A DNA stretch of 64,000 nucleotides. Source: Antricoccus suffuscus (GTDB taxonomy: Bacteria > Actinomycetota > Actinomycetes > Mycobacteriales > Antricoccaceae). Both the position numbers and the translations under genes were made by a program. This document shows, in pieces, positions 1 through 27,828 of this stretch. The stretch spans positions 372,001-436,000 of the forward strand of contig NZ_PVUE01000001.1 of the NCBI RefSeq assembly GCF_003003235.1. Reading direction: 5' to 3'. The notes beneath the pieces are model-generated. The model was not told the origin of the DNA. It saw only the letters and a list, made by a program, of their open reading frames with translations, and did not search any database. Position 1 is the stretch's first letter. Every line of letters starts with the position of its first letter.

Positions 1-1
1 C

Positions 2-94
2 GATGAGCAGAGCTGGCTCTGGAAGACGAAGGACTCGCAGGAAGGCGTCGCGGCTAACCTCGCCCGTCGTACGGCGGTCTTCACCGGCGAGTAA
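2..94 (+). CDS. Enoyl-CoA hydratase/isomerase family protein, C-terminal 30 residues (5' end outside window)
   Basis: The reading frame is open from the window edge to a TAA at 92-94. It encodes a tail containing EGVAANLARRTAVFTGE, the usual C-terminal helix and ending of crotonase-superfamily proteins (typically ...EG..AF..KR.P.F.G.). Only about a tenth of the normal 250-280 residues is visible, so substrate and exact function cannot be judged. It points the same way as the acyl-CoA operon that starts at 554, but a 460-bp spacer with repeats and an operator-like palindrome separates them, so it need not be the same transcript. The family call rests on the tail alone. Confidence 0.5.
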   Translation, partial: DEQSWLWKTKDSQEGVAANLARRTAVFTGE

Positions 95-102
95 CCCGCC
101 GG

Positions 103-185
103 TCCGTCACAAAATCTCTGCCGATCCGTCACAAAATTCCGCCGATCCGTCACAAAATCTCTGCCGATCCGTCACAAAATTCCGT
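103..185. repeat. Four tandem 21/22-bp units, core TCCGTCACAAAAT
   Basis: The word TCCGTCAC starts at 103, 125, 146 and 168, giving periods of 22, 21 and 22. Units alternate between a CTCTG and a TCC variant after the AAAAT, so the array can also be read as two 43-bp units. A similar 21-bp unit occurs in the other orientation at 42211-42253. The array lies between a crotonase tail and the next operon and encodes nothing recognisable. The function is unknown. Confidence 0.85.
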
Positions 186-296
186 TCCGTCCGTCACCCT
201 CGCACCGTGCGTCGCGCTTGAGTTGCCATTCAAGCGGGCTGGACACAGACGACGCCGTTTCGGTCTAGTTCCGCTCCCCGTTACCGGCGTAGGACC

Positions 297-356
297 ACAT
301 TTGTACCGCTTCGCAGCACGCGCCAGATGCATTTTGCTGCGAAATAGCACAAATGT
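297..356. repeat. Nested inverted repeat (hairpin) in the 95-553 spacer
   Basis: Outer arms ACATTTGT (297-304) and ACAAATGT (349-356) are perfect complements. Inside them TTCGCAGCA (310-318) pairs with TGCTGCGAA (335-343), leaving a 16-nt loop. No T-run follows either arm, so it is not a classic intrinsic terminator. Its outer arm resembles the arms of hairpins at 19047-19107 and 33358-33419, which suggests an interspersed element. Apart from this, the tandem array and the palindrome at 503-531, nothing recognisable was seen in the 95-553 gap. Confidence 0.75.
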
Positions 357-502
357 CCGATTATGCGGATCGTGCGTGACGAGGTCGCGGACGGTGGGCT
401 ACGAACTCGCGGATTCTCGTACGACGAAAGCGTGGCGCTCGGGATGTGCGTAAACCTTAATCCGACGATGTGCTGATTGCGCGGAATCGACTCGTAGGGT
501 AG

Positions 503-531
503 AAGTATATGCAGTGAAAGTGCACATACTT
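503..531. promoter_or_regulatory. Operator-like inverted repeat upstream of the acyl-CoA operon
   Basis: AAGTATATGCA (503-513) and TGCACATACTT (521-531) are inverted copies matching at 10 of 11 positions around a 7-nt spacer. The site is 10 nt upstream of the AGGTGG ribosome-binding site (541-546) of the first operon gene, where a repressor would overlap the promoter or early leader. No regulator gene is adjacent, so the cognate protein (GntR or TetR type by symmetry) is unknown. Confidence 0.5.
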
Positions 532-553
532 ATAGTCGCGAGGTGGATTCTGC

Positions 554-1420
554 ATGTCAATAGAGCAAAACGTGATCGCGGGAATGACGCGGCGACCGCG
601 CAACCTGCATCAGGGGAAGCCCGGCAGTATTCACGACGACTCGACGGCACGGAAGCTCGGTTTCCGCGGGGGCACTATTGCTGGCAGTTACCACATGGAG
701 CAGGCCGTGCCGTTGGTCGCGCACCACTTGGGCGCAACGCCGGAGGAGTGGTTCAACAGCGGGACGATGGCCGCGTATTTCCTGCAACCGACCGTTGACG
801 ACCAGCAGGTCACCGCGTTTCTGAGCCCCGACGCAGGATCGGATGCGAATCGTGCGGACCTGTGGATGGAGACGGCAGACGGCGGGCGCGTGTTCGAGGG
901 CTCGGCGAGTGTCGGAGAGCCTGATGGGCCGAGCGCGCTCGCGGCGAAGATGAATAGCCGTGGCGCGGACGAGCGCAGGATTCTTGCGGCGATCGAACCG
1001 GGAGAAGAACTCGATCTCGGGGAGATCGTCGCAAAGGGCGAGTCGCAACGAAATCGCCTCGCCCAAGGCCTGATGGCTGAACCATTGCCCTGGTATCGCG
1101 GCGAATCGCCGTGGGGCGGGGCGATTGCCTCTCCCGTGGTGGAGGTCGGCTTCACATTCGAGAATGTCAAGCAGGAAATCATCCAACGTCGTGGACCGGG
1201 CGTCGTCGGCCTGTATGGAGCCATCGAGGTCCGCCACTTCGGGGAACCGCTGTTGCTCGATGAGAGCTATCGCGTGACGAGCACCGTCCGCGATATGGGT
1301 TGCACTCCTAAGACGGAGTACATGTGGACCGAGACCGTCGCGAGCCGAGCGGGCCGCCCCGTCCTGTCGGTGCTGATGATGAGCCGTGTCATGAAGGCCT
1401 CGTCTGAGCTGTACGCATGA
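554..1420 (+). CDS. MaoC-like acyl-CoA dehydratase/hydratase, double hot-dog
   Basis: The 288-residue protein has the MaoC hydratase signature near residues 27-50 (IHDDSTARKLGFRGG followed by TIAGSYH), where Asp and His act in (R)-enoyl-CoA hydration or the reverse dehydration. The length, about twice a single hot-dog domain, and a second region around residues 215-285 suggest two tandem hot-dog folds, the first with the visible catalytic motif. The start ATG is preceded by AGGTGG at a 7-nt spacing. It overlaps the downstream CoA-transferase by 4 nt (ATGA), so it heads an operon with two CoA-transferases and two acyl-CoA dehydrogenases. The family is solid; the substrate is not known. Confidence 0.8.
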   Translation: MSIEQNVIAGMTRRPRNLHQGKPGSIHDDSTARKLGFRGGTIAGSYHMEQAVPLVAHHLGATPEEWFNSGTMAAYFLQPTVDDQQVTAFLSPDAGSDANRADLWMETADGGRVFEGSASVGEPDGPSALAAKMNSRGADERRILAAIEPGEELDLGEIVAKGESQRNRLAQGLMAEPLPWYRGESPWGGAIASPVVEVGFTFENVKQEIIQRRGPGVVGLYGAIEVRHFGEPLLLDESYRVTSTVRDMGCTPKTEYMWTETVASRAGRPVLSVLMMSRVMKASSELYA

Positions 1421-2556
1421 GCGGCTCTGTTGCGAAGCGGGCGCCGCGAAAGGCGGACGTCCGCCCTCCTGCTCTGCGGCACCTGCACGTGGTGGACCTC
1501 AGCGCCGGGGTCGCCGGGCAATATTGCTGCCGTGTCTTAGCCTCTGCCGGCGCCCGCGTGACTCTTGTGGAGCCGCCAGAGGGTACGGCGACTCGACGTA
1601 TGCCGCCGTACGACGCGAGCGGCGACTCGACCCTGTTCCGTCACCTGAACCAGGGCAAGCACGGCGTCGTTGTGCCGAACTCTGCCGATGGCGATGCTCG
1701 CCTGGCCGATCTTGTCGCGTCCGCGGACGTGATCGTGCGAGACCTCCCCGGCGGGGAGATCAGTTCGGCGGTGCCCATTCCGGAGAGCGCCATCGACTGC
1801 GTGATCAGTGACTTCCCGGAGGACGGGCCGTACGCGACGTGGAAAGCGGACGAGATGGTGCACCAGGCGCTGTCGGGCTATATGAACGCCACCGGGCGCG
1901 GAGACCGACGTCCGCTATTCGGAGTCGGCCACCGGGCGTACTACGCCTGCGGTACGACGGCCACCACCAGCATCCTCGCAGCGCTGCACGAACGCCGTCG
2001 CTCCGGGCAAGGCCAGCGCGTACGTGCGACCGTCTTCGAGTCGATTGCCGCGATAGGGCAGAACTTCGTCACGCAGTACACCTACAACGGCACCTCAGAA
2101 AGTCGTGCCCGCTACACAGGCCTGCTCGCAACGCTGCGCTGTTCGGACGGATACATCGTCATGTTCGCGATGCGCGACTCAGCGGCCGTCTGCCGGACTT
2201 TCGATGCCGAGCACTTGATCACCGATCCTCGATTCGATAGGCCCGCCTCACTCATCCGCAACTGGGACGAGCTCGTGCAGGTCTTCCAGGCCAAGGCGCA
2301 AACAATGACCACCGCTGAGGTGGTCCGCCGCGCTCAGGCAGAACGAATCAGCTGCGAGCGGGTCGCCACCCTGGGTGAGTTACTCGATTCAGAGCAGTGG
2401 CGCGAGCGAGACGTAGTGCGAGCTGTTGGGCCCGCTGACGGAGGGCCGACAGAGTTCGCATTGGGACCCCTATACCGAGTCTCGGGATCACCAGGTGGCG
2501 TAACCACGTCGAGCCCACGCCTAGCGCCCGCATCGCGACGGGTGGCTGGTCGATGA
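1417..2556 (+). CDS. CaiB/BaiF (family III) CoA-transferase, probably non-catalytic subunit
   Basis: At 379 residues this is a family III CoA-transferase: HVVDLSAGVAGQYCCRVLAS and an acidic-Pro ARVTLVEPPEG stretch at the N-terminus, and the conserved helix ILAALHERRRSGQGQRVRA near residues 183-202. In active members an Asp that forms the acyl anhydride lies in an aDyaaG-like segment just before this helix. Here the segment reads RAYYACG and Tyr175 sits in the Asp position. The next gene is a second family III protein with the Asp intact, and the two ORFs overlap (ATGA), so the natural reading is a heteromeric transferase in which this chain is structural or substrate-binding, as in BbsE/BbsF-type pairs. 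Confidence 0.75.
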   Translation: MSGSVAKRAPRKADVRPPALRHLHVVDLSAGVAGQYCCRVLASAGARVTLVEPPEGTATRRMPPYDASGDSTLFRHLNQGKHGVVVPNSADGDARLADLVASADVIVRDLPGGEISSAVPIPESAIDCVISDFPEDGPYATWKADEMVHQALSGYMNATGRGDRRPLFGVGHRAYYACGTTATTSILAALHERRRSGQGQRVRATVFESIAAIGQNFVTQYTYNGTSESRARYTGLLATLRCSDGYIVMFAMRDSAAVCRTFDAEHLITDPRFDRPASLIRNWDELVQVFQAKAQTMTTAEVVRRAQAERISCERVATLGELLDSEQWRERDVVRAVGPADGGPTEFALGPLYRVSGSPGGVTTSSPRLAPASRRVAGR

Positions 2557-3842
2557 ATCACACGAACACCACTTTGACGGGGCCGCTCAGCGATATTCGG
2601 GTTCTCGACATGACCACGGCGTGGGCGGGGCCGATGGCGAGCCGGAGCCTTGCGTGGCTCGGCGCGGACGTCATCAAGATCGAGGCTCCTGGTCGCCCGG
2701 ACGGTTGGCGCGGATTCCTGACCGGCGGGGCGGCACACCACTATCCCGATCTCGAGCACGGCGCGCGACCGTACAACCGCGACCTGCTGTTCAACACGCA
2801 GAACCACGACAAGAGGTCCCTTGTCCTCGACCTGAAAGCGCCGCACGGTCGCGATGTGTTCCTTGAACTCGCGGCGTTGAGCGACATCGTCGTTGCTAAC
2901 TTCACGCCGGGTGTGCTCGACCGGCTGCGGATCGGGTACGACGATTTAGCCGAGGTAAACGACCAGATCATCGTCGTGGAGATGCCCGCCTTCGGATCGA
3001 CCGGACCGATGGCCTCGCATTTCGGCATGGGCAAGACCATGGAAGCCGCGTGCGGGATGGCGGATCTGATGGGTTATGGAGATGACGATCGGCCGGTGCT
3101 CACCGGACCCGCGATCCTGGATCCCATCGGTGGGTTGAACGCCGCCAACGCCGCGGTTGCGGCGCTCGAACTGCGCGCCGAGACGGGAATTGGTTGCCAT
3201 ATCGAGGTCGCCCAGACCGAAGCAGCCGCGCACTGGATCGGCGAACTCTTCCTCAACGAGCTGGGAGGCGGTGCGCCGCAGATCAAAGACGGCAATCGGA
3301 TCCCGGGGGTGACTCCGCACGAGGCCTTCCCCGCTCTAGGAGATGACCAGTGGGTCGTCGTTGCCGCACGAGACGAGCAAGAGTGGCAGTCGCTATGTGA
3401 GGTCATTGGCCGACCCGACCTTGCCGCCGATAGCGAGCTCGCGAACCCCGATGGCCGGTACCGTCGCAAGGACGACGTTGAATCCGCAGTGGCGGAGTGG
3501 ACCGCGCAACGCGACAAGCGCGCCGCCGCCACGTTGTTACAGGCCGCGGGAGTTCCGGCCGCACCGGTCTGCGATGGTGCCGACGTAGCGGGCGATCCTG
3601 GGTTGGTGGCGAGCGGGATGCTCCAAGAGATAACCCATCCGGAGGCTGGCACACACATCTACCCCGGTCTGGCGTATCGCCTCGACCGCACTCCTGGCGG
3701 CATGTCTCGCCCAGCCCCATTGTTCGCGGAGCACAACGAAGAGATCCTCTCCGAGATGCTCAGCAAGTCTGAGGAACAGATCGCCGCGCTCGCCGCGACG
3801 GCGACCATTAGCGACACACCCGTCATCAAACCGACCAAATAG
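2553..3842 (+). CDS. CaiB/BaiF (family III) CoA-transferase, catalytic subunit
   Basis: This 429-residue protein carries the complete family pattern: VLDMTTAWAGPMASRSLAWLGADVIKIE at the N-terminus (positions about 18-45), NHDKRSLVLDLK, NFTPGVLDRLRIGY, and the acyl-accepting Asp190 in PAILDPIGG. Such enzymes move CoA between carboxylic acids by a ping-pong mechanism with a mixed-anhydride intermediate. Its start overlaps the stop of the preceding family III paralogue, which lacks this Asp. The pair probably activates the operon's substrate acid using another acyl-CoA as donor. Donor and acceptor are unknown. Confidence 0.85.
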   Translation: MNHTNTTLTGPLSDIRVLDMTTAWAGPMASRSLAWLGADVIKIEAPGRPDGWRGFLTGGAAHHYPDLEHGARPYNRDLLFNTQNHDKRSLVLDLKAPHGRDVFLELAALSDIVVANFTPGVLDRLRIGYDDLAEVNDQIIVVEMPAFGSTGPMASHFGMGKTMEAACGMADLMGYGDDDRPVLTGPAILDPIGGLNAANAAVAALELRAETGIGCHIEVAQTEAAAHWIGELFLNELGGGAPQIKDGNRIPGVTPHEAFPALGDDQWVVVAARDEQEWQSLCEVIGRPDLAADSELANPDGRYRRKDDVESAVAEWTAQRDKRAAATLLQAAGVPAAPVCDGADVAGDPGLVASGMLQEITHPEAGTHIYPGLAYRLDRTPGGMSRPAPLFAEHNEEILSEMLSKSEEQIAALAATATISDTPVIKPTK

Positions 3843-3912
3843 ACAGCGCCCGTGCCGACGTCCGCTGCCGAGCCCGCGGATGGCGCGCCGTATGTTGCAA
3901 GGAGAATCTGCC

Positions 3913-5169
3913 ATGCAGAACCGCGTCATTTCTCGACCGCCAGTCCCACCGACCGAAGTCGCGGTGAACGCCGGACCTGAAGTTGCGCGGTTCCGACAGG
4001 AGTTCCGTGAGTGGCTGAAGCAGCACGCGCCCGCGGACCTCCGGGGCGTCGCGTGGCCGGTCTCCGAGCACAGTCCACACCGGCAGCGCCTGCTGGAATG
4101 GGGCAATGTCCTGGCCGAGGCCGGATACATGTGCGTCGCGTGGCCGACCGAGTACGGCGGACGGGGCCTGTCTCCGACCGAGATCGCGGTGATGAATGAA
4201 GAGTTCGACAGTGCGAACGTCCCGAGGGTCACTCGCGGTCGAGCCGAGACCACCGTCGGTCCAGCGATCATCGCGCACGGAAGCCCGGAGCAGAAGGCGT
4301 ATTTTCTCCCGCGGATCATCTCGGGCGAGCATGTCTATAGTCAGGGTTTCTCCGAGCCGAACTCCGGCTCGGATCTCGCGAGTCTGCGCACGAGTGGCTT
4401 CGTCGAGGGCGACGAACTGGTGATCAACGGCCAGAAGGTGTGGACCTCTGGATACTACGAAGCGACCATGATGTTCGTGCTGGTCCGTACGGATCCGGAC
4501 TCGTCCAGGCACTCGGGAATTAGCTACGTGCTCGTACCGGTGAAAGATAACGGGCCCGGGACGGGCGTCGAGTTCCGACCGATCCGTCAGTTGACGGGCA
4601 AGTCTGGGTTCGCGGAGACCTTCTTCGAGGATGCGCGGGTACCGCTGTTCAATGTAATCGGTCAGCTGAACGATGGCTGGCGCGTCACCGTCACTACGCT
4701 GGGTCACGAACGCGGGAACCGCGCGACGACCGCCCATGTCGGGTATGCGCGCGACTTCTGGGCCCTTGTTGAGCAGCTGCGCTCACGGGGCGATCTGTCG
4801 AATCCCGTCGTACGGGAGAAACTTGCCTGGGCCTGGACGCAAATCGAAACCATGCGCTTCTCGGGCCTGCAACTGCTCGCCACGCTGGCGGCCGGCCAGG
4901 ACGCGAGTAGCCGCGCCGAGAACGGGTCGTCCACCAAGATCCGGTGGTCGGAATATGCGCGGCGGTTCGGCGAGATCGCGCTCGATCTGATCGGACCGGA
5001 CGGCCTGACTTCTGGGAATTCGAACCCCGGCCGGCTGGGCCACTGGCAGGAGAGTTTCCTGAGCAGCCGGTCGGGGACGATCTGGGGCGGAACCGCTGAG
5101 GTGCAACGCAACATCATCGCCGAACGAGTGCTTGGCATGCCGAAAGAAAATAGAGGACAAGGCCGATGA
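3913..5169 (+). CDS. Acyl-CoA dehydrogenase, long-subunit type
   Basis: An ATG lies 33 nt upstream at 3880, but the start at 3913 has an AAGGAG eight nt before it and is preferred, giving 418 residues. The protein has the ACAD layout: an N-terminal helical region with AWPTEYGGRGL, the FAD/substrate loop FSEPNSGSDLASL followed by GQKVWTSG, and the C-terminal IWGGTAEVQRNIIAERVLG. It oxidises an acyl-CoA at the alpha-beta bond and passes electrons to ETF. The next gene is a second, shorter ACAD overlapping by ATGA. In actinobacteria such neighbouring unequal ACAD genes often encode alpha2-beta2 heterotetramers (the ChsE-type steroid enzymes), which is the suggested arrangement here. Confidence 0.85.
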   Translation: MQNRVISRPPVPPTEVAVNAGPEVARFRQEFREWLKQHAPADLRGVAWPVSEHSPHRQRLLEWGNVLAEAGYMCVAWPTEYGGRGLSPTEIAVMNEEFDSANVPRVTRGRAETTVGPAIIAHGSPEQKAYFLPRIISGEHVYSQGFSEPNSGSDLASLRTSGFVEGDELVINGQKVWTSGYYEATMMFVLVRTDPDSSRHSGISYVLVPVKDNGPGTGVEFRPIRQLTGKSGFAETFFEDARVPLFNVIGQLNDGWRVTVTTLGHERGNRATTAHVGYARDFWALVEQLRSRGDLSNPVVREKLAWAWTQIETMRFSGLQLLATLAAGQDASSRAENGSSTKIRWSEYARRFGEIALDLIGPDGLTSGNSNPGRLGHWQESFLSSRSGTIWGGTAEVQRNIIAERVLGMPKENRGQGR

Positions 5170-6287
5170 GCTTAGCTATCACGCAAGAGCAACAAGACCT
5201 CACGAGCGCGGTGCGTCGGTACCTTGCGAACCGGTCACCATTGACCAGAGTCCGTGAAGTGATGGACCATGACGTCCCGCATGATCCGGAGATATGGCGC
5301 GGCCTCGCTGACCTCGGCGTACACGGCTTGGCGATCCCCACCGAGTACGGTGGCAGCGGCGTCGACGCATCGACGCTCTCGCACGTGATGGAAACGATCG
5401 GGCGTGCGCTCCTGCCAGGGCCGTGGCTGGCAACCCTCGGTCTTGCAGTACCGCTGCTGCTGGCCAGCGAGGACGCTAATGCGATGTCGCGGTATTTACC
5501 GGCTATTGCAGAAGGGCAGTCTGTGGCTACCGTGGGGTGGCTCACCCCGGGGTGTGGTTGGGAGGACATCGGTTCGGCGGTCACCGCGCGCGAGGTCGAT
5601 GGCCGCTGGCGACTCAACGGAAAGGTCGCGTTGGTCCTCGATGCGCCTGCGGCCGACGTGATTCTCGTAGTCGCGTCGTCCGGCAACGAGATAAGCGTCT
5701 TCGCCGTGGACGCTTACACCGTTGGTGTCTCGACGCAGCATGTCCCCGCACTTGACTGCACTCGGGGCCTCGGCGACGTCACGCTGACTGATACAGAGGC
5801 CAGCCTCGTCGGGAAGGTGGGCGGCGGTGCCGAGCTTCTCGAACGGGCCCGCGAGCAGGCGTACGTGCTATTGGCGGCGGAGATGGTTGGCGGCGCTCAG
5901 GCCTGTCTTGACTCGGCCGTGGGCTATGCGCTGCAGCGTGAGCAGTTCGGGCGATCGATTGCTTCATTCCAGGCGATCAAGCACAAGTGTGCCGAGATCC
6001 AGGTCGACATCGAGGGAGCTCGCTCCTGCGCCCGATACGCCGCCTGGGCGTGCGGGAACAGCCCCGCTGAGGTTCCTTACGTGGCCGCGCTGGCGAAGGC
6101 ATCGGCTGCCGATGCCTTCTTTCACGCCGCCGCGGAGAACATTCAGATCCACGGAGGCATCGGTTTTACGTGGGAGCACGACGCGCATCTTTACTTCAAG
6201 CGAGCGAAGGCGGACCAGCTCTTGTTCGGCGATACGTCGGCGATGAGGCTCAAGCTCGCCGACCAGTTGTTCGGCCCCACTGGGTAG
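5166..6287 (+). CDS. Acyl-CoA dehydrogenase, short-subunit type
   Basis: This 373-residue ACAD has IPTEYGGSG near the N-terminus, an atypical middle segment (WLTPGCGWEDIGSA) in place of the well-conserved E.gaGSD loop of its neighbour, and the C-terminal QIHGGIGFTWEHDAHLYFKRA. The Glu in WEHD is at the position used as catalytic base in several bacterial ACADs of this branch. The weakened FAD/substrate loop and the coupling to the preceding ACAD fit a partner subunit in a heteromeric dehydrogenase rather than an independent enzyme. It shares the CoA-transferase/MaoC operon. Family certain, subunit role inferred. Confidence 0.8.
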   Translation: MSLAITQEQQDLTSAVRRYLANRSPLTRVREVMDHDVPHDPEIWRGLADLGVHGLAIPTEYGGSGVDASTLSHVMETIGRALLPGPWLATLGLAVPLLLASEDANAMSRYLPAIAEGQSVATVGWLTPGCGWEDIGSAVTAREVDGRWRLNGKVALVLDAPAADVILVVASSGNEISVFAVDAYTVGVSTQHVPALDCTRGLGDVTLTDTEASLVGKVGGGAELLERAREQAYVLLAAEMVGGAQACLDSAVGYALQREQFGRSIASFQAIKHKCAEIQVDIEGARSCARYAAWACGNSPAEVPYVAALAKASAADAFFHAAAENIQIHGGIGFTWEHDAHLYFKRAKADQLLFGDTSAMRLKLADQLFGPTG

Positions 6288-6328
6288 AAGGGGCAGCGGG
6301 CCGTCGACCGCTAGGTAATGTCGACGTC

Positions 6329-8125
6329 ATGTTTACGACGCGACCGGAGCTTACCGGGACCTTTGGGGCAGTAGCCTCGACGCACTACCTCGCCAGCCAG
6401 TGTGGGATGGCGGTGTTGGAGGAGGGTGGCAACGCGTTCGACGCGGCCGTCGCGACGGCATTCGTGATGCAGGTGGTCGAACCGCACCTCAACGGACCCG
6501 GCGGCGACATGCCGCTCATTATGCGCAAGCAGGGCGAGTCGCCGAAGGTGTTGTGCGCGCAGGGCGTCGCACCGATGGGCGCAACCATCGAGCATTACCG
6601 CTCGCTGGGCCTCGACGTGGTACCCGGCACGGGGCTGCTCGCGCCGGCGCTACCGGGCGCCGTACCCGGCTGGCTGACGCTCCTGCGCGATTACGGCACG
6701 CGTACGCCGCGCCAGGTCATGCGTTTCGCCATCGAGTACGCCGGGGCCGGTCACCCGCTCATCGCCGGCGCGGCGACCACGATCGACCGGATGGCGGGCT
6801 ACTTCACCGAGTCTTGGCCGACGTCGGCCGCGACGTGGTTGCCCAACGGCCAGGCGCCGCAGGCGGGTGAGGTGTTTCGAAACCCCACCTTGGCCGCAAC
6901 GTACTCCCGCCTGTGCGACGAAGCCGAAGCCGCAGGTAGCGACCGTGAGGCTCAATGCGATGCCGCGCTGCGCGCGTGGAGTCACGGGTTTGTGGCAGAG
7001 GCAATCGACGCGTTCGCGCGGCAGGAAGTCCCTGACTCGTCCGGCGCCCGGCACGCGGGAGTGATGACGGGCGAAGACCTGGCGCGGTGGACGCCGACGT
7101 ACGAAGAGCCGCTCAGCCTCGACTGGCGCGGAAAGACCATCTATAAATGCGGTCCCTGGTCGCAGGGCGTGGTCTTGCTCGAACAGCTCGCGATCCTCGA
7201 CGGGCTCCTACCGGACCGCCTCGAGGACTGGGACGCTGCCACGATTCACAGTGTCGCGGAGGCAGCGAAACTCGCGTTTGCCGACAGAGATGCATTCTGC
7301 GGTGACTCGCTTGACAATCCGGTCGACGTTAGCGGACTGCTCGATCCGGCGTACGTCGCGCAGCGCCGCGCCCTGATCGGAGCTGAAGCGTCGCTGGAGC
7401 TACGCCCCGGGTCACTCAACGGTGTCGCCGGCCGGCTCGCGTCCGCCGTACAGGTCCGGACTTCCTATGAGGCAAGCAAAGTCGGCCAGACCGTCGCCGG
7501 TATCGGCGAGCCGACTATCGACCGTAAAGGGGTGACCCGCGGCGACACGTGCCATTTGGACGTTGTCGACCGGTGGGGCAACGTCGTCTCGTCGACGCCG
7601 AGCGGCGGGTGGTTGCAGTCGTCGCCGACCATCCCGGCGCTCGGCTTCGCGCTCGGCAGCCGTTTGCAGATGACCTGGCTCGAGGAAGGTCTACCGTCGT
7701 CGCTGCGACCGGGACGCCGTCCGCGATCCACGCTGACTCCGTCGCTGTCGACCGATGAGCACGATGTCACGACGTCGTTCGGTACGCCGGGCGGCGATCA
7801 ACAAGACCAATGGCAGCTGGTGTTTCTGCTCGGCCAGGCTATCCGCGGGCTCAACCTTCAGGAGGCCATCGACGCGCCGAGCTGGCACTCATCCGGCGTG
7901 GTCTCGTCGTTCGACCCCCGGGTGTGGGAACCCGGCGTACTCGACCTCGAGTCACGTATCCCGGACGCCGTCATCGATGAGCTCGCCGACCGCGGACATC
8001 GCATCCGGCTCGCCGGTGACTGGGCCCTTGGTCGCATGTCGGCGGCGTCGTACGACCCACGAGACGGGCTCATCCGCGCCGGCGCCAACCCACGAGGCAT
8101 GCAGGGGTACGCCGTCGCCCGCTGA
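6329..8125 (+). CDS. Gamma-glutamyltransferase (Ntn-hydrolase) family protein
   Basis: The frame is open from 6170, but homology begins at the ATG at 6329, giving 598 residues starting FTTRPELTGTFGAVASTH. Family landmarks are GGNAFDAAVA and GPGGDMPL near the N-terminus, the autocatalytic Thr407 in RGDTCHLDVVDRWGN, which becomes the N-terminal nucleophile of the small subunit, and TPSGGW and FGTPGGDQQ in the small subunit. No signal peptide is visible, so it appears cytoplasmic, unlike the periplasmic glutathione enzyme. Actinobacteria use mycothiol, so the substrate may be another gamma-glutamyl or amide compound. It lies 41 bp after the ACAD genes on the same strand and may be co-transcribed. 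Confidence 0.8.
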   Translation: MFTTRPELTGTFGAVASTHYLASQCGMAVLEEGGNAFDAAVATAFVMQVVEPHLNGPGGDMPLIMRKQGESPKVLCAQGVAPMGATIEHYRSLGLDVVPGTGLLAPALPGAVPGWLTLLRDYGTRTPRQVMRFAIEYAGAGHPLIAGAATTIDRMAGYFTESWPTSAATWLPNGQAPQAGEVFRNPTLAATYSRLCDEAEAAGSDREAQCDAALRAWSHGFVAEAIDAFARQEVPDSSGARHAGVMTGEDLARWTPTYEEPLSLDWRGKTIYKCGPWSQGVVLLEQLAILDGLLPDRLEDWDAATIHSVAEAAKLAFADRDAFCGDSLDNPVDVSGLLDPAYVAQRRALIGAEASLELRPGSLNGVAGRLASAVQVRTSYEASKVGQTVAGIGEPTIDRKGVTRGDTCHLDVVDRWGNVVSSTPSGGWLQSSPTIPALGFALGSRLQMTWLEEGLPSSLRPGRRPRSTLTPSLSTDEHDVTTSFGTPGGDQQDQWQLVFLLGQAIRGLNLQEAIDAPSWHSSGVVSSFDPRVWEPGVLDLESRIPDAVIDELADRGHRIRLAGDWALGRMSAASYDPRDGLIRAGANPRGMQGYAVAR

Positions 8126-8147
8126 CCCGCCGTACGAGGGAGCCGTA

Positions 8148-9656
8148 TCAGCGGTATTCGAGACCGTCTTCCACGTCAATTTCGGGAAAGATCTTGGCCT
8201 CGTGGTCGTATTCGTACAAATGCTTCCACGGGTCCCGGTCACCCTGCTTGTAGAGCTTGTCAAGCGAACGCATCATGTAGCCCGCACTGATGTTCTCCGA
8301 GTCGACCCACGGCATCAGCGGCATGTCTTCGTCTTCGGGACGCAGGGTCGGTACGACGACGTGCGCATTGCGCTCGACCATGTGCCCGAAGATGCGACCG
8401 ACGAGCTCGTTGATCATGTCGATCCGCAGCGTCCAGCTGTGCCGGAAGTAGCCGAATGCGTAGGTCATGTTTGGGACACCGCTGATCATGAGCCCACGCC
8501 AGGTCACGCGTTTGGTGAAGTCGACGGGCTCGCCGTCCACCTCGAACGGGATGTCGCCGAACGTTGACATGTTGAAGCCGGTCGCGGTGACGATAATGTC
8601 GGCCTCCAGCACCTCGCCGGAGGAGATCTGCACACCCTTCTCGACGAACTCGTTGATCGTGTCGGTGACGACCGAGATCTTGCCGGCACGCATCCGCTCG
8701 AAGAAGTCGCCGTCGGGGACTCGCACGATGCGCTGCTGCCATGGCCGGTATTTCGGCGTGAAGTCCTTGTCGATGTCTGCGCCCTCCGGAAGCAGGTCTC
8801 GGATGCCGTCCAGCAACATCTCGCGAGCCTCATCGGGGTTCGTCTGGGCGAGCGTCGTAATCGCGTCGCTCTCCATGATGTATTGGCGCCGAAGGATCTC
8901 GTGGGTCCATGCGGGTGGTAGGTCCAGCGGTTCCAGCATCTTGGCGAGGTCGTGTACGACGGGCCGCGCGGCATAGAACGATGGCGAGCGTTGCAGCACG
9001 GTCACGTGCTCTGCCGTCTTGGCCATCTCTGGGGCCACGGTCGCCATGGTCGCGCCGGAGCCGATGATCAACACGCGTTTGTCGGCGTAGTCGACATCCT
9101 CTTGCCACTGTTCCGGGTGTACGAGGGTCCCCTCATAGCGATCCATGCCCGGCCAGTTGGGCGTGTAGGGCTCGTCGAAGTTGTAGTAACCCTGGCACAT
9201 CCACAAGAAGTTGGCGGTATAGCGCACCTGCTCACCGGTGTCGCCCCGGGTGACGTGGGCGGTCCACTGACTGTCCTGGGATGACCACTCGAGCGCGGTC
9301 ACTCGGTGGCTGTAGTGGATGTGACCGGCCAGGTCTTCCTCCTCGATGACCTCTTCGAGGTACTTGAGGATCTGGTCAGCGGTCGCGATCGACGGGCCGC
9401 GCCACGGTTTGTGCTGGTAGCCGTAGGTGAACAGGTCGCTGTCGGAGCGGATGCCGGGGAAGCGGTGTGCCCACCACGTGCCGCCGAAGGCATCCTGCGC
9501 ATCCAGGATCGCGAAGCTCCGGTCGGGGTATTTGTCGCGCAGATGGTGCGCGGCGCCGATACCGGAGACTCCGGCACCCACAATCAGTACGTCGACATGA
9601 GTAACGTCGCCGGTACTCGTTTCCTGCGGGAGATCAACTGTTGCGGTATCTGTCAT
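8148..9656 (-). CDS. FAD/NADPH-dependent monooxygenase, EthA/Baeyer-Villiger type
   Basis: The 502-residue protein begins with an FAD Rossmann motif (VLIVGAGVSGIGAAHHL) and FGGTWWAHRFPGIRSDSD, close in pattern to mycobacterial EthA. It then has the Baeyer-Villiger/FMO fingerprint region YEGTLVHPEQW (variant of FxGxxxHxxxW) and a second nucleotide-binding motif IIGSGATMAT for NADPH. It likely inserts oxygen into ketones or oxidises sulfur or nitrogen compounds. Its 3' end faces the gamma-glutamyltransferase gene across 22 bp. It diverges from a DUF488 gene, with about 125 bp between the two starts. Substrate unknown. Confidence 0.85.
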   Translation of the reverse strand: MTDTATVDLPQETSTGDVTHVDVLIVGAGVSGIGAAHHLRDKYPDRSFAILDAQDAFGGTWWAHRFPGIRSDSDLFTYGYQHKPWRGPSIATADQILKYLEEVIEEEDLAGHIHYSHRVTALEWSSQDSQWTAHVTRGDTGEQVRYTANFLWMCQGYYNFDEPYTPNWPGMDRYEGTLVHPEQWQEDVDYADKRVLIIGSGATMATVAPEMAKTAEHVTVLQRSPSFYAARPVVHDLAKMLEPLDLPPAWTHEILRRQYIMESDAITTLAQTNPDEAREMLLDGIRDLLPEGADIDKDFTPKYRPWQQRIVRVPDGDFFERMRAGKISVVTDTINEFVEKGVQISSGEVLEADIIVTATGFNMSTFGDIPFEVDGEPVDFTKRVTWRGLMISGVPNMTYAFGYFRHSWTLRIDMINELVGRIFGHMVERNAHVVVPTLRPEDEDMPLMPWVDSENISAGYMMRSLDKLYKQGDRDPWKHLYEYDHEAKIFPEIDVEDGLEYR

Positions 9657-21703: not shown

Positions 21704-21828
21704 TTCTGTCTCCTCCTCGGTGCCGCTGCTCGGCGAGATCCGCTCAACCCTAGTTGTCGCGCTCCGCGACGTTGTGAACGTGGTCGCCGGGTCTGGGCTC
21801 TTGCCTACCTATGATCGCAGAGTTATTG

Positions 21829-21854
21829 TAGTTTACCGACCAGACGGTAAACTA
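21829..21854. promoter_or_regulatory. Probable TetR operator (perfect palindrome)
   Basis: TAGTTTACCG (21829-21838) and CGGTAAACTA (21845-21854) are perfect inverted copies around the 6-nt spacer ACCAGA. The site ends 3 nt before the GGAG (21858-21861) that precedes the ACAD start, and lies 125 bp from the divergent TetR start. Position, symmetry and AT-rich arms are what a TetR dimer pair usually binds. It would block transcription of the operon and possibly of the regulator itself. Confidence 0.8.
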
Positions 21855-21866
21855 ATTGGAGCGACA

Positions 21867-23000
21867 ATGACCCTCGCACCCGAGCACCGCGACTTCCAGT
21901 TGATGTGTCGCGCATTCACCGACAAACAGGTACGCCCTGCGGTGGCACAGGCTGAGACTGACGGGCGCCTTACCGATGAGCTCTGGCGATCAATGGGAGC
22001 TGCAGGAATGCTCGGCCTGATGACACCCGAAGAGCAGGGCGGGAGTGGTCGCGATCAGGTAGCCGTCGCCATAGTCGCCGAGGAACTCGCCAGGGCAGCC
22101 GGTGGCGTTGCGATCGGTCCGTTGGTAAGTGCATACATGGCCGGTACACACATCATCGATAACGGCACCGATGCCCACCGCGAAGAGTTTGCCGAAGGTA
22201 TCGCGGCGGGGGAGAAGATTGCGTCGATCGCGGTCACCGAACCTGGCGCGGGGTCGGACGTCGCGGGCCTGATCACCCGGGCAGTAGCGGCCGATGACGG
22301 CTACCGCATCACGGGTCAGAAGATGTTCATCACCAACGCCGGATTGGCCGACGTCCTTATAGTCGGCGCCAAGACCGAGCCAGGACGCGGACACCGCGGT
22401 ATTACGACATTTCTCGTTCGAGCAGGTACCGAGGGTCTGTCCGTGGGAAAACCGCTGCCCAAGATGGGATGGCGGTCATCCGATACCCGCGAGGTGATTC
22501 TGGACAATGTGTTCGTCCCGCGCAGCGACATCGTCGGCGGACTCAATCGTGGCTTCTACCAGATCATGGCGGCCTTCCAGCTTGAGCGGGTCATCCTTGC
22601 AGCGATGGGTGTTGGGCACGCCGCCGAAGCGTTTGAACTGGCGATCCGTCACGTTCGAGACCGCGCGGCCTTTGGCGGGCACCTAATAGACAAGCAGTCA
22701 GTCCGCCACCGTCTGGCGACGATGGAAATCGACCTGGACACTGCCCGGATGATCACCTACCTCGCGGCCGAGCAACTGCGGACCGGGCATCCCGACGCGC
22801 CGCGGACGGTAGCCAAAGCGAAATATCACGCGGCCGTTGCAGCCGCCCGAGTGGTCGATGACGCCGTGCAGCTTCACGGCGGGTCCGGATACGTAGAAGA
22901 AGGTGACATCGCCCGCCATCAGCGTGACGTCCGGATCCTCCGCATCGGAGGCGGAGTCGACGAGGTGCAGCTCGACATCTTGAGTAAGGCCTACGCCTGA
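21867..23000 (+). CDS. Acyl-CoA dehydrogenase (first gene of the biotin-carboxylase operon)
   Basis: The frame is open from 21720, but the ATG at 21867 has GGAG five nt upstream and gives the natural start TLAPEHRDFQLMCRAF (377 residues). It contains VTEPGAGSDVAGLITRA, GQKMFITNAG, and the C-terminal HGGSGYVEEGDIARHQRDVRILRIGGG. It oxidises a short or branched acyl-CoA to the enoyl-CoA, with ETF as acceptor. Because a biotin-dependent carboxylase and a CitE-like lyase follow, isovaleryl-CoA or a related branched acyl-CoA is the best guess. The specificity cannot be read directly. Confidence 0.88.
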   Translation: MTLAPEHRDFQLMCRAFTDKQVRPAVAQAETDGRLTDELWRSMGAAGMLGLMTPEEQGGSGRDQVAVAIVAEELARAAGGVAIGPLVSAYMAGTHIIDNGTDAHREEFAEGIAAGEKIASIAVTEPGAGSDVAGLITRAVAADDGYRITGQKMFITNAGLADVLIVGAKTEPGRGHRGITTFLVRAGTEGLSVGKPLPKMGWRSSDTREVILDNVFVPRSDIVGGLNRGFYQIMAAFQLERVILAAMGVGHAAEAFELAIRHVRDRAAFGGHLIDKQSVRHRLATMEIDLDTARMITYLAAEQLRTGHPDAPRTVAKAKYHAAVAAARVVDDAVQLHGGSGYVEEGDIARHQRDVRILRIGGGVDEVQLDILSKAYA

Positions 23001-23041
23001 GTTCATAGCGCCGAACCGTTGGACCGTCCAAGGAGGAATGA

Positions 23042-24997
23042 ATGTCTGACAATCTGAGTGAAATGCTCGCGGCACCGCTGCTGCCGTTGCGCGAAGAGTG
23101 GGTCGCGCCGGACTACCAAGAGGAGGCGGCGCACGCGCGCGCTCTTCATGATGAAGATCCCGACCTGTATTGGGAGTGGGTCGCGAAGCAGCATCGTTGG
23201 CAGCGGCCGTGGTCGACGCTGCGCACCGGCGGGTTCGGCGATTTTGAGTACTACGTCGGTGGCCGCATCAACGTTGCGGACAATTGTGTCGATCGCTGGG
23301 CGGAGGACCCACAGACTCGCGACAAGCCAGCCGTGATCTGGGAGGGGGAACCTGGCGACAGTCGCACCGTCACCTATGCCGAACTTGCAGACGAGGTTGG
23401 TCGGTTCGCCGCCGGCCTGTCCTCGGTCGGGGTGCGACGGGGCGATATCGTGGCCATCTACCTTCCCAACACGGTCGAGGCGTTCGTGGCAATACACGCA
23501 TGCAACCGCATTGGAGCTATATATACGATTCTCTTCTCTGGATTCAGCGAGGAGGCCGTGCGGTCGCGGTTGGCGCAGGCCGAGCCGAAGGCGGTCGTTG
23601 TCGCGGATGCGAGTTACCGTCGCGGACACGAGGTGCCGCTGCTTGACACACTTCGCGCCGCCCGGGCCGACCTCGTCGAGCAACCGGTGACGATCGTGTT
23701 TGACCGTACCGGGCACGGAGTTGCGCTGACCGACGGAGAGGTCGACTACGCCGAGTTGCTCGCGCAGCAAACCGTGTCGGCGCCCATGGCGCAGATGGAT
23801 CCGAACGAGCCGGCGTTCCTAATATTCACGAGCGGAACCACGGCGAAGCCCAAGGGTGTCGTGCACAGCGTCGGTGGTTTCCTCGTTGGAACCTGGGCCA
23901 ATGCGCACTGGCAAGTGGGCCCGCAGGATCGTGACGTCTACTGGGTCGCGGCCGACGTCGGGTGGCTTACCTTCCCTATCCAGGCTGTCATCGGTGGACT
24001 GGCCAACGGCATGACGATCGTTTGTTACGAGGGTGCGCTCGATGCGCCGACGAATGAACGTTTCTACCAGATCTGTGAGAAGCACGCGGTTACGAAATTG
24101 CTCGCCGCACCTACCGTGTTGCGCATGTTGCGTGGACTCGGCGAGGAGATCAACCATGCACATCCGCTGCCGTTGCTCAAACTTGTGACAGCGCAGGGTG
24201 AACCACTAGATAGCGAGACCTTCACCTGGACGAATGAGCATCTAAGTGGCGGGCTACCGGTGATCAACGCCTACGGCCAGACCGAGACCGGTTCGACCTG
24301 GACCTACCCCATCTACGGAGTGGATCCCCTCAAGGCCGGATCCGCAGGCACCCCCGTCCCGGGTCACACGTGTGCCGTCGTCGACGACGAAGGTCAGCCT
24401 GTTCCCGTTGGCGTAAAAGGCAACTTAGTCATTACTCGTCCGTTCCCCACTCTGGCCCGTTCGGTCTGGAAGGATCCCGATCGATACAAGGAGACCTATT
24501 TTGCACGGTTCCCTGGTGCGTACGCGACCAGCGATGAGGCGGTCATCGACCCGGATGGCCATTTGTGGGTGCTGGGCCGATCCGATGACGTGATCAACGT
24601 TGCGGCCCACCGGATATCGACGATGGAGATCGAAGAGGCAGTCGGCGGTGTCCCGGATGTGCTTGAGGCGGCGGTCGTCGGCGTCTCCCACGCGACGAAG
24701 GGGACTGTGCCGGTGGCATTCGTGCGGCTCACCCAGGACGCACCCTCGGACACTGTCGACACGATCACGAAGACCGTGCCGCAGCAACTCGGAAAGTACG
24801 TCCAGCTGGGTGCGGTGTACGTCGTTGACGCGTTGCCGCGCACTCGGACCGGAAAGACGGTGCGCCGGCTGTTGCGTGACGTTGCTACCGATGGTCGCCC
24901 AAGCGGTGACACCAGCGCGGTAGAGGACATCGCCGTACTCGACCGAATCGTCGAACTGGTGAGTCGCGCCAAGCAGAACTCCGGGGCGCAAGGATGA
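23042..24997 (+). CDS. AMP-forming acyl-CoA synthetase (acetyl/propionyl-CoA synthetase-like)
   Basis: The 651-residue length and layout match the acetyl-CoA synthetase branch. The N-terminal ACAS domain contains [12 protein letters not shown] and [15 protein letters not shown]. The ATP loop is [15 protein letters not shown], followed by [30 protein letters not shown] and the C-terminal catalytic Lys region [16 protein letters not shown]. It activates a carboxylic acid with ATP and CoA. Within this operon it probably activates a short or branched acid feeding the dehydrogenase. The downstream gene starts inside its stop (ATGA). Confidence 0.88.
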
Positions 24998-25467
24998 GCG
25001 CTGCTCGTCCCACAACGGGCATGTGGTTCGAAGAGCTCGCACCTGGAACGATCGTCCAGCACGCGGTGCGCCGCACCGTGACTGAGACCGACAACGTGCT
25101 CTTCACGACGATGACGATGAATCCGGCGCCGCTGCACTTGGACGCGGCTTATGCCGCGACCACCGAGTTCGGCAAGCCGTTGGTGAACAGCATGTTTACC
25201 ATGGCGCTTGTTGTCGGACTCTCCGTGCACGAGCTGACGTTGGGCACGATAGTGGCCCAACTTAGCGTGTCGGACGCGGTCTTCCCGGCTCCGGTCTTTC
25301 ACGGCGACACCATTCGAGTGGAGACCGAAGTGCTCAGTGCGCGGGAGTCTAGTTCGCGTCCGGGCGCAGGCCTGGTTGTCTTCGAACACCGCGCATACAA
25401 CCAGAACGAAGTACTCGTCTGCAAGCTGCAGCGCACGGGCCTGATGCATAAGGAGCCACGAGAGTGA
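24994..25467 (+). CDS. MaoC-like enoyl-CoA hydratase
   Basis: A single hot-dog protein of 157 residues with [19 protein letters not shown], the MaoC hydration motif (here Asn in place of the common Asp, His retained), and [18 protein letters not shown], which forms the second conserved strand. It resembles the MaoC protein of the mycobacterial accA1/accD1-citE locus. It should hydrate the enoyl-CoA made by the operon's carboxylase or dehydrogenase. It overlaps both neighbours by 4 nt, so equal expression is likely. Confidence 0.85.
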
Positions 25468-26981
25468 CGGACTCGCAGATTCCTGTTCTTGAAGCCATTG
25501 ACGCGGCCCGCGCCGGGAACAGTCCCGAGCGCTGGCCGGAGAAGATCCCGGTCCGCGATCGGGTCGCACTCCTTCTCGACCCGGGATCGTGGGTCGAGGA
25601 CGGCCTGCTAGCGAACAGCGCTAGTGAAGGTCTCCCGGCCGATGGGGTGCTCACCGGGGTCGGAACCGTGCACGGCCGAACGGTAGCGGTCATCGCGCAC
25701 GACTTCGCGGTCAAGGCCGGTTCGTGGGGTGAGTTGACGGTCGAGAAACAGATTCGAATTCTTGAGCGCGCCGATAGAGACCTGCTCCCGGTCTTCTACC
25801 TCGTCGATTCCGCCGGTGGGCGGCTGACCGACCAGTTCGGGTTCTTCCATGGCAGCCGTGGCGCTTCGCGCATCTTTCAACTCCAGGTGGCACTGTCCGG
25901 GCGAGTGCCGCAGATCTGCTGTTTGCACGGCCCGTCGGCGGCCGGGGGCGCCTACATGCCCGCGTTCACCGACTGGGTGGGCATGGTCAACGGCAATGCC
26001 TCGATGTATCTCGCCTCGCCGCGGGTTGCCGAGATGGTGACTGGTGAGAAGACCACCCTCGAGGAGATGGGTGGTGCGATGATGCATGCCAGCATCTCAG
26101 GGTGCGGCGACGAGGTTTTCGACTCGGATTGGGAGGCTATCGCCGCGGCACGGCACCTGCTGTCCTACCTCCCCGACGACTGGCGTACTCGGCCGGCAGA
26201 GGTCGAGGCACGTCAACCCGCGCGCCTTGACTGGCCGGCGAACTTGATTCCCGAAGAGCAGAACGGCGGATACGACGTTCGCGATGTGATCGACCGCCTG
26301 GCCGACGCGGACAGCTTCTTCGAAATCAAGGCGCGCTGGGCCACGGAGATCGTCGTCGGTTTCGCTCGCCTCGACGGCTCGGTCGTCGGTGTAGTGGCGA
26401 ACCAGCCGTCAGTGCGCAGTGGCGCGATATTCGTCGATTCGGCCGACAAGGCCGCCCGGTTCATCAGCATGTGCGACGCCTACAACATCCCGTTGCTGTT
26501 TTTGCAGGACGTGCCCGGCTTCATGGTTGGAGTCGCAATCGAGCGTCAGGGGATCATCCGACACGGCGCGAAGATGGTGACCGCGATGGCCAGCGCCGAG
26601 GTTCCGAAGGTCGCCGTGGTACTCCGTAAGGCATATGCAGCGGGCTTCTACGCGATGTGTGCGCCAGGTTTTGAGCCGCGTGCCACCCTCGCCCTGCCCG
26701 GCGCGACGATTGCTCCGATGTCGCCGGAGGCCTCCACTAACGCTATCTACGCGAGAAAGATCGAGGCCATTGAGGACGATAACGAGCGCGAACAGTTCGT
26801 CGCCGAGAAGGTTGCCGAGCAGTCTGCTGATGCCGACCTGCTCAACGTCGCGAGCCGGCTCATCGTCGATGCGGTCGTGGAGCCCGGTGACCTGCGCACC
26901 GAACTGGTCCGGCGGTTTCACGCTGCTCAAGGCTGGAGCCGGTCTGCGAACCGTCGCCATCATGTGATCAGCCCCGTCTGA
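25464..26981 (+). CDS. Acyl-CoA carboxylase, carboxyltransferase (beta) subunit
   Basis: The 505-residue protein is a biotin-dependent carboxyltransferase: [48 protein letters not shown] and [17 protein letters not shown] in the N half. The C half has [11 protein letters not shown] and a biotin/CoA-site loop [18 protein letters not shown]. It moves carboxyl from biotin to an acyl-CoA. The partner biotin carboxylase/carrier subunit is two genes downstream. The pairing is that of MCC/PCC-like enzymes; the substrate (3-methylcrotonyl, propionyl, or other branched acyl-CoA) is not fixed by the sequence. Confidence 0.9.
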
Positions 26982-27000
26982 AGGAGATTGTCTTCATCCC

Positions 27001-27828
27001 ATGAGCCAGATAACCGTCGCACCCCGCAGCGTGCTGTTCATGCCAGCCTCCAAGCCGACAATGGCGGCAAAGATCCCCGACATCCGGCCCGACGTCGCCG
27101 TACTCGACCTCGAGGACGCGGTGCAGCACGGCGCCAAGTCGCAGGCGCGCGAACAGTTGCGTGCCATCCTGACCCAGACACAGTTGCTGGACGGGGACGT
27201 CCCGATTCTGGTGCGCGTCAATGAGATGGGAAGCCCCTGGATCGACGAAGACTTGTCGCTCGTCCGCGAGATTCCCCGCGTGGGAGTGGTCCTACCTAAG
27301 GCCGAGTCGCCCGAGGCCGTCGAACGGGTGCGTTTACTACTGCCGGACCGTCACCTGATGGTGGGTGTGGAGAGCGCGCGCGGGGTGGCGGACGCGCGAG
27401 TCATCCTGGAGGCCGGCCCCGATAGCTGCTACTTCGGCGCCGAAGACTACATCGTCGACCTCGGCGGGCGACGCACCAACGCCGGCAACGAGGTGCTCTA
27501 TGCACGCAGCCAGGTAGTCCTTGCCGCCCGGCTCAGCGGCGCGTACGCCGTCGACCAGGTAGTCGTCGCCGTACACGACGATTCCGCGTTTGAGGCCGAC
27601 GCCGCGGTGGCGCGCGATCTCGGATACAACGGCAAGCTGTGCTTGCACCCGCAGCAGGTCGAAGTTTCGCACCGAGTCTTCTCGCCCTCGCCGGAGGAGG
27701 TAGCGCACGCCCGGCGCGTCGTGCGGGCCGCCGGCGACGGTGTTGGGTTGGTAGACGGAGCAATGGTCGACCACGTGCATGTCCGGCAGGCACGCGACGT
27801 ACTCGCCAGATCCGGCGGAGCCTCGTAA
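27001..27828 (+). CDS. HpcH/HpaI aldolase / CitE-like beta-hydroxyacyl-CoA lyase
   Basis: This 275-residue TIM-barrel lyase has SVLFMPASKPTMAAK, VLDLEDAVQHGAK (metal/Mg2+ Asp-Glu), MVGVESARGVADA, YFGAEDYIVDLGG and GYNGKLCLHPQQ, the full CitE/Mcl pattern. No citrate-lyase alpha or gamma partners are nearby. In mycobacteria the CitE-like protein beside accA1/accD1 is a beta-hydroxyacyl-CoA lyase of leucine-type degradation. That role would let this operon cleave a hydroxymethylglutaryl-type CoA without a classical HMG-CoA lyase. A GGAG-like leader lies 8 nt upstream. Confidence 0.85.
   Translation: MSQITVAPRSVLFMPASKPTMAAKIPDIRPDVAVLDLEDAVQHGAKSQAREQLRAILTQTQLLDGDVPILVRVNEMGSPWIDEDLSLVREIPRVGVVLPKAESPEAVERVRLLLPDRHLMVGVESARGVADARVILEAGPDSCYFGAEDYIVDLGGRRTNAGNEVLYARSQVVLAARLSGAYAVDQVVVAVHDDSAFEADAAVARDLGYNGKLCLHPQQVEVSHRVFSPSPEEVAHARRVVRAAGDGVGLVDGAMVDHVHVRQARDVLARSGGAS

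Follow-up and report, generated by a model that had tools for sequence, protein, structure and literature searches.

The left end of a 64,000-nt stretch of the Antricoccus suffuscus genome (contig NZ_PVUE01000001.1, positions 372,001–436,000; hereafter the window) carries six genes in a row, encoding a maoC-like double hot-dog protein, two family III coenzyme A (CoA)-transferase subunits (CotA and CotB), two acyl-CoA dehydrogenase subunits (AcdL and AcdS) and a hydrolase resembling gamma-glutamyltransferase (GGT). We consider it likely, at a probability of about 0.72, that the first five genes (positions 554–6287) are a self-contained cassette for the activation and oxidation of an acid, sister to a module with an Opp-type ATP-binding cassette (ABC) importer, and that this cassette is set between ech4 and the GGT gene of an older operon. 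A preliminary description had joined all six genes in one pathway. Their open reading frames (ORFs) were confirmed, with Pfam families for five of the six, and the appearance of a single six-gene operon most probably comes from their lying side by side. In a plain list of genes the two systems would run together; parted, each receives a testable role. Gene content, conservation, one-sided catalytic residues, fusions, synteny and the replaced glutamyl pocket were read from the sequence, and the insertion event, the shared importer, the CoA donor, the substrate and the hydration step were reasoned from it.

The five-gene cassette and its sister module

Four CotA sequences, used to scan a genome collection, identified 18 loci across 16 genomes (L024/L025 and L031 belong to the same genome), in which genes were placed by tblastn with the six window genes, the GGT paralogue of the A. 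suffuscus genome and the upstream genes as queries. Gene presence rests on tblastn; ORF lists chosen by G+C content at third codon positions (GC3) misjudge some frames. In Actinomadura sp. 7K507 (L026) and A. craniellae (L027), a binding-protein gene stands with maoC, cotA, cotB, acdL and acdS, and the five cassette genes share 64–77% identity with their counterparts in the window. Neither locus has a GGT gene beside the cassette, 6.2 kb past acdS being covered in both. Moreover, the window GGT and its paralogue had no match, even at an expected value of 1, in the available sequence of the 18 loci, with L043 counted among them and with the absence covering less than 10 kb on one or both sides in the short loci L029, L033, L037 and L039. 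The preliminary description had placed GGT in the same cluster; among relatives it is missing from both close ones and from the available sequence of the 18 loci.

Ten of the other 16 loci (L028–L036 and L038) carry the sister module, with CoA-transferase, dehydrogenase, ech2 and opp genes. A TetR-like gene is present in 8 of these 10 (L028–L035), L036 is rearranged and has no AcdS match, and L029 begins inside the opp genes, while L037, outside this group, has opp genes and a cotA cut short by the end of its contig. A. suffuscus also carries the sister module with its Opp-type importer; measured between CotA positions, it stands 13.5 kb upstream of the cassette, and in the two Actinomadura genomes the distance is about 21 kb. 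Searches with CotA in sets of 397 and 394 genomes matched, at an expected value of 1e-40, only the A. suffuscus genome and one other (G660); at most 4 candidates per genome were scored in these searches, misses are likely, and the scan of genome contigs found more.

The five-gene cassette is real and recurrent in actinobacteria. Together with its sister, it represents a recurrent actinobacterial module in which one CoA-transferase subunit does the work, the dehydrogenase is made of two subunits and the sister adds an Opp-type importer. No description of this module was found in the open-access literature searched. The A. suffuscus genome has two further sites (L022 on contig C18 and L104 on contig C5) where Opp-type importer genes and family III CoA-transferase genes are close to each other. 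Other maoC-like genes were rejected as the same system: the maoC search matched 7 of 397 genomes, and the six loci besides the window (L010–L015; L011 is short, with the gene at its edge) lack the other five genes at an expected value of 1e-6.

Enzymes of the cassette

PF02515 (CoA_transf_3) matches both Cot subunits, with 204.5 and 334.7 bits (cut-off 23.3). At the place of Asp169 in E. coli Frc, which we take to be the catalytic residue, Asp was found in all 19 CotB sequences and in none of the 20 CotA sequences aligned; L037, at a contig edge, gave no CotB, and L043 (Bacillus, 27%), an ordinary CoA-transferase, was left out of these counts. Since cotA and cotB are fused into one open frame in 6 of the 8 loci tested (the six having been chosen because their ORFs looked fused), CotA and CotB would form a physical complex. 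Judged by these residues, CotAB is a two-subunit CoA-transferase with one working half, CotB.

CotAB resembles BbsEF, the benzylsuccinate CoA-transferase (PDB 9fn0), which is also a two-subunit family III enzyme: CotB scores 169 bits on chain B vs 89 on chain A, and CotA scores 57 bits on chain A vs 25 on chain B. In the available part of the source, the bbs pathway runs from CoA transfer to an acyl-CoA dehydrogenase and a hydratase (PMC10818641), and the cassette likewise couples its CoA-transferase with an acyl-CoA dehydrogenase and a hydratase candidate. However, the top matches are 9br7 (succinate-hydroxymethylglutarate CoA-transferase, 173 bits) for CotB and 4ed9 (80 bits) for CotA, and, unlike the bbs system, the cassette has a two-subunit dehydrogenase and a double hot-dog hydratase candidate, and its sister module has an Opp-type importer.

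AcdL and AcdS are encoded by two genes with dehydrogenase domains. A Glu at the helix-G place, so assigned by us from the alignment, is kept in all 14 aligned AcdL sequences, and the RxQFG motif is kept in all 13 aligned AcdS sequences. The nearest known systems are the steroid alpha2beta2 dehydrogenases (Tcur3483/Tcur3481, ChsE4-ChsE5 and IpdE1-IpdE2): AcdL matches best to 6wy8 chain B (184 bits) and 4x28 chain A (178 bits), and AcdS matches the other chain of each (6wy8 chain A, 107 bits; 4x28 chain D, 85 bits), 4x28 being presumably ChsE4-ChsE5. However, AcdS scores slightly higher on ordinary dehydrogenases (8i4p, 117 bits), and AcdL and AcdS stay far under the PimC and IpdE2 cut-offs (217 vs 624 for PimC, 183 vs 450 for IpdE2). 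In alpha2beta2 dehydrogenases, labour is divided between the subunits, with the Glu in one and the flavin adenine dinucleotide (FAD) motif in the other (PMC11153573, available part). AcdLS, with adjacent unequal subunits, the Glu in one and the FAD motif in the other, fits the alpha2beta2 type. The heteromeric nature of both enzymes, as claimed in the preliminary description, is supported by the two PF02515 subunits with the catalytic Asp in CotB only and by the paired dehydrogenase genes with their conserved Glu and RxQFG.

The protein of the first gene had been labelled a MaoC-type double hot-dog and given a hydration step. It has no family in Pfam or NCBIfam and no match in sequence searches of the PDB, and was placed by fold search only. 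An AlphaFold2 model built from 10 homologues (mean pLDDT 85.6, pTM 0.86) matches best to 4e3e, a putative MaoC dehydratase, and 8hgn, mesaconyl-CoA hydratase (expected values of about 1e-11, TM 0.57–0.58 of the query, root-mean-square deviation 8–9 Å). The double hot-dog part of the label is borne out by this fold. As for MaoC itself, profile comparison with MFE-2 hydratases gave a probability of 14%, and PF01575 matches only 1 of the 10 homologues (expected value 7.5e-6, 26.0 bits vs a cut-off of 27) and not the window protein. In MaoC proteins the catalytic Asp and His usually sit in the motif GD-x-NP-x-H. This Asp is missing in all 10 aligned homologues, whereas His27 is invariant in all 10, so that the hydration step fits the fold but is weakly supported. 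The missing Asp would also suit a thioesterase, as would further matches of the model to many hot-dog thioesterases, including 2own, TesB and FatA; in that case, the unsaturated acid would leave the cassette in free form and not enter beta-oxidation. We regard this as doubtful, given that the two best fold matches are the putative MaoC dehydratase and the hydratase, and that genes suited to full beta-oxidation lie further downstream of the cassette in Actinomadura, namely an SDR gene in strain 7K507 and a thiolase and an MFE-2-type hydratase in A. craniellae; A. craniellae also has a TetR gene and an acyl-CoA synthetase-like gene there.

The features of CotAB and AcdLS, taken with these downstream thiolase, hydratase and SDR genes, suggest beta-oxidation of a bulky acid, and the cassette itself most likely activates and desaturates such an acid. 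Acid activation and oxidation, as first proposed for the five-gene set, thus agree with the families, the catalytic residues and the conserved cassette. The acid would be brought into the cell by an Opp-type ABC importer shared with the sister module; CotAB would load it with CoA taken from, for example, succinyl-CoA, the chemistry taking place on CotB Asp190 only; AcdLS would introduce a 2,3 double bond; and the double hot-dog protein would hydrate the product or hydrolyse a thioester.

The GGT-like protein and the origin of the arrangement

The label of a GGT-type N-terminal nucleophile (Ntn) hydrolase given in the preliminary description holds for the family: like E. coli Ggt, the window GGT belongs to PF01019, and its Thr407 nucleophile and Gly488-Gly489 oxyanion site are kept in the alignment. 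Its closest solved relatives, matched over the full length, are 6j3a (656.7 bits) and 6j3i (654.4 bits). We infer that these are LmbA2991 of Streptomyces lincolnensis, because of the length of 617 (420 + 197), the Asp420-Thr421 site, the sequence TCHLDVVDRW and the Thr421Ala change in 6j3i; no description of 6J3A was found in the open-access literature searched. The Asp-Thr processing site and the small-subunit start TCHLDVVDRW are identical in the window GGT, which also has the same pocket residues as LmbA2991/Ant6 in the alignment. According to the available part of the source, LmbA2991 and Ant6 cleave a C–C bond of a pyrroline derived from 3,4-dihydroxyphenylalanine (DOPA), oxalate was detected with Ant6, LmbA2991 gave the same main product at about 37% of the Ant6 conversion, and the authors called the role of LmbA2991 itself unclear (PMC5519988). 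Unlike these Streptomyces enzymes, the window GGT has acyl-CoA enzymes as neighbours; no search aimed at 4-alkylproline genes was made.

The difference from E. coli Ggt lies in the glutamyl pocket. E. coli Arg114, Asn411, Gln430 and Asp433 are replaced by Gln, Gly, Arg and Met in all 22 distinct clade sequences (at least 49% identity), the window included, where Gln78 stands in place of Arg114 and Met448 in place of Asp433. All 22 also have the active-site sequence found in LmbA2991. For this alignment, 11 of the 12 clade GGT loci fetched from the order were used (L052, for which a wrong frame had been picked, was dropped), L085 and L089, being one gene, were counted once, and L090 (34%) and other weak rows were kept outside the clade count. 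Arg114 and Asp433 contact the alpha-carboxylate and the alpha-amino group of the gamma-glutamyl moiety (PMC8062742, available part). The TIGR00066 equivalog score, 235.3 bits, is also under its cut-off of 357.85. Since the glutamyl-binding residues are replaced, it is unlikely that the window GGT handles gamma-glutamyl compounds. It is probably a separate C–C or amide hydrolase, possibly co-transcribed with the cassette now, and by its clade would hydrolyse a C–C or amide bond next to a carbonyl. The clade, which falls under the gamma-glutamyltranspeptidase model PF01019 despite its changed pocket, is a common one: of 200 genomes sampled in the order, 97 matched the window GGT at an expected value below 1e-90. 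A second GGT of the LmbA2991 type in the A. suffuscus genome (L021, contig C18, ~40–59 kb) lies directly beside an Opp-type ABC importer operon and also near CoA ligases and an enoyl-CoA hydratase.

The arrangement was compared in 5 genomes of the family of A. suffuscus, on which the polarity of gain or loss rests. Those of two sister genera (G018 and G041) have acd3 (79% and 78% identity), acdX, ech4 (57% and 55%) and GGT (66%) but no cassette; ech4 and GGT are 20 bp apart in G018 and 63 bp apart in G041, and after GGT come a glucosaminidase gene and ADA on the other strand. In A. suffuscus, base 94 is the end of cotC-acd3-acdX-ech4, and what separates it from GGT is the cassette. G002 (L097) has acd3-acdX-ech4-glucosaminidase-ADA, from which GGT is cleanly missing in comparison with L044 and L045, and GGT would therefore be dispensable at the older locus as well; G031 has acd3-acdX-ech4 without GGT, and neither of these two genomes gave a GGT match at an expected value of 1e-20. 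In 10 other acd3-type loci (including L104 of the A. suffuscus genome), GGT adjoins ech4 in 2. This placement across acd3-type loci indicates that GGT is an optional member of the acd3-acdX-ech4 operon and not of the cassette. GGT was rejected as part of the cassette on its absence from the available sequence of the 18 loci and its position after ech4 in G018 and G041.

Two further lines of evidence separate GGT from the cassette. Trees of small sets place GGT together with its G018 and G041 counterparts (support 1.00); for cotB, acdL and acdS, the partners are the Actinomadura pair (supports 0.99, 1.00 and 1.00). GC3 is 0.744–0.773 in the five cassette genes and 0.801–0.824 in cotC, acd3, acdX, ech4 and ggt; with its value of 0.806, ggt sorts with ech4. 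We infer that the cassette came to lie between ech4 and GGT of an older acd3-acdX-ech4-ggt operon, and GGT probably belongs to this neighbouring operon.

Several points weigh against this reading: i) GC3 in the rest of the window (mean 0.774, standard deviation 0.047) is at the cassette level, which gives no sign of foreign composition; ii) a search for repeats flanking the cassette gave one shared 9-base word and nothing longer; iii) the cassette in the window has no binding-protein gene of its own; iv) no terminator-like site is present on the + strand between acdS and GGT, which makes a shared transcript possible now; v) of 13 genomes that have related modules, 9, among them both Actinomadura genomes, encode a GGT of the clade (at least 49% identity) at another place, which may act in trans; vi) some true GGTs tolerate changes in the pocket, with Ser for Arg in some and with 82% of hydrolysis kept by Asp433Asn (PMC8062742, available part); and vii) loss of the cassette from both sister lineages is an alternative to insertion. 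On this last account, the cassette would be ancestral in the family, ech4-cassette-GGT would be the original order, and GGT would always have been read with it. The small number of family genomes behind the polarity and the agreement of cassette and window GC3 leave room for it, but an identical clean deletion would have to be assumed for both genera (g2 and g3), after which ech4 and GGT were only 20–63 bp apart, and, among the loci found, the closest relatives of the cassette are in Actinomadura near the sister module. We therefore find it unlikely.

Even less probable is the role given to the enzyme in the preliminary description, in which it takes part in the pathway by freeing the acid from a conjugate, either an amide or a gamma-glutamyl one. 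GGT does lie 41 bp downstream on the same strand with no terminator-like site between, clade members are present elsewhere in both Actinomadura genomes, and Ntn hydrolases mostly cut amides (PMC5519988, available part). Against this stand the absence of GGT beside the cassette in both close relatives and from the available sequence of the 18 loci, its position beside another operon in two sister genera and the change of all four pocket residues. The inference drawn from GGT is not supported, though the substrate may still be an amide. If GGT belongs to the older operon, as we prefer, it might act with acd3, acdX and ech4 as a catabolic C–C hydrolase that removes an oxalyl-type two-carbon unit from the product of a CoA pathway via an acyl-Thr intermediate. 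This assignment is speculative and on balance improbable; if true, it would give the common LmbA2991 clade a function in catabolism.

Gene layout and other features of the window

Features at and near positions 554–8125 (positions are those of the window)
Feature	Positions	Strand	Basis or remark
ech4, enoyl-CoA hydratase/isomerase, 3' end	1–94	+	last gene of cotC-acd3-acdX-ech4, an operon mostly left of the window
22-bp tandem array, ~4.6 units	98–197	+	just past the ech4 stop; left edge of the ech4-GGT segment
operator-like inverted repeat	503–531	+	11-base arms matching at 10/11, 7-base spacer; 22 bp 5' of maoC
maoC-like double hot-dog protein, 288 aa	554–1420	+	fold match of predicted model
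cotA, family III CoA-transferase subunit without catalytic Asp (Tyr175)	1417–2556	+	Pfam CoA_transf_3, alignment
cotB, family III CoA-transferase subunit with catalytic Asp (Asp190)	2553–3842	+	Pfam CoA_transf_3, alignment
acdL, acyl-CoA dehydrogenase alpha-type subunit, helix-G-type Glu (Glu266 counted from 3913)	3913–5169	+	Pfam, alignment
acdS, acyl-CoA dehydrogenase beta-type subunit, RxQFG FAD-type motif	5166–6287	+	Pfam, alignment
GGT-like Ntn hydrolase, LmbA2991 type, nucleophile Thr407, 598 aa	6329–8125	+	Pfam G_glu_transpept, alignment; after ech4 in two sister genera

The six genes had been described as one unit by overlap. This is true of 3 of the 5 junctions, which have 4-bp overlaps (at 1417, 2553 and 5166), but not of cotB-acdL, with a gap of 70 bp, or of acdS-GGT, with a gap of 41 bp. 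The first gap is measured to the acdL start at 3913, which has an AAGGAG ribosome-binding site, the frame being open from 3880. The second is measured to the GGT start at 6329, assigned because 6j3a and the G018 and G041 copies begin with MFTTRP at the equivalent position; a GTG at 6170 lies upstream of this homologous start. A scan of positions 1–8400 listed no terminator-like site on the + strand, and read-through from acdS into GGT is possible; the same scan found 0 promoters vs 1.4 expected. With an operator-like repeat 22 bp ahead of maoC that occurs nowhere else in the genome as an exact copy, the cassette may have a promoter of its own. The repeat was read by eye and then checked, the repeat finder having given no listing of 503–531; the pattern derived from it has a single exact site in the genome, the chance expectation of 0 being for a pattern derived from the site itself.

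The 22-bp unit (~GATCCGTCACAAAATC plus 6 bases) forms tandem arrays across the A. suffuscus genome, e.g. L107–L112 as well as the array in the window. It has 52 matches with at most 1 mismatch on both strands of the genome (0 for the reversed control), and 0, 0, 0 and 1 matches in the other four family genomes. Of 8 arrays read, 6 are preceded within a few bases by TAA or TAG, which was confirmed as the stop of a gene in the window only. Elsewhere in the window (21720–29612), genes for an acyl-CoA dehydrogenase, an AMP ligase, a MaoC protein, a carboxyl transferase, an HpcH/HpaI lyase and a biotin carboxylase lie in a row, which we take to resemble a set for leucine or isovalerate breakdown.

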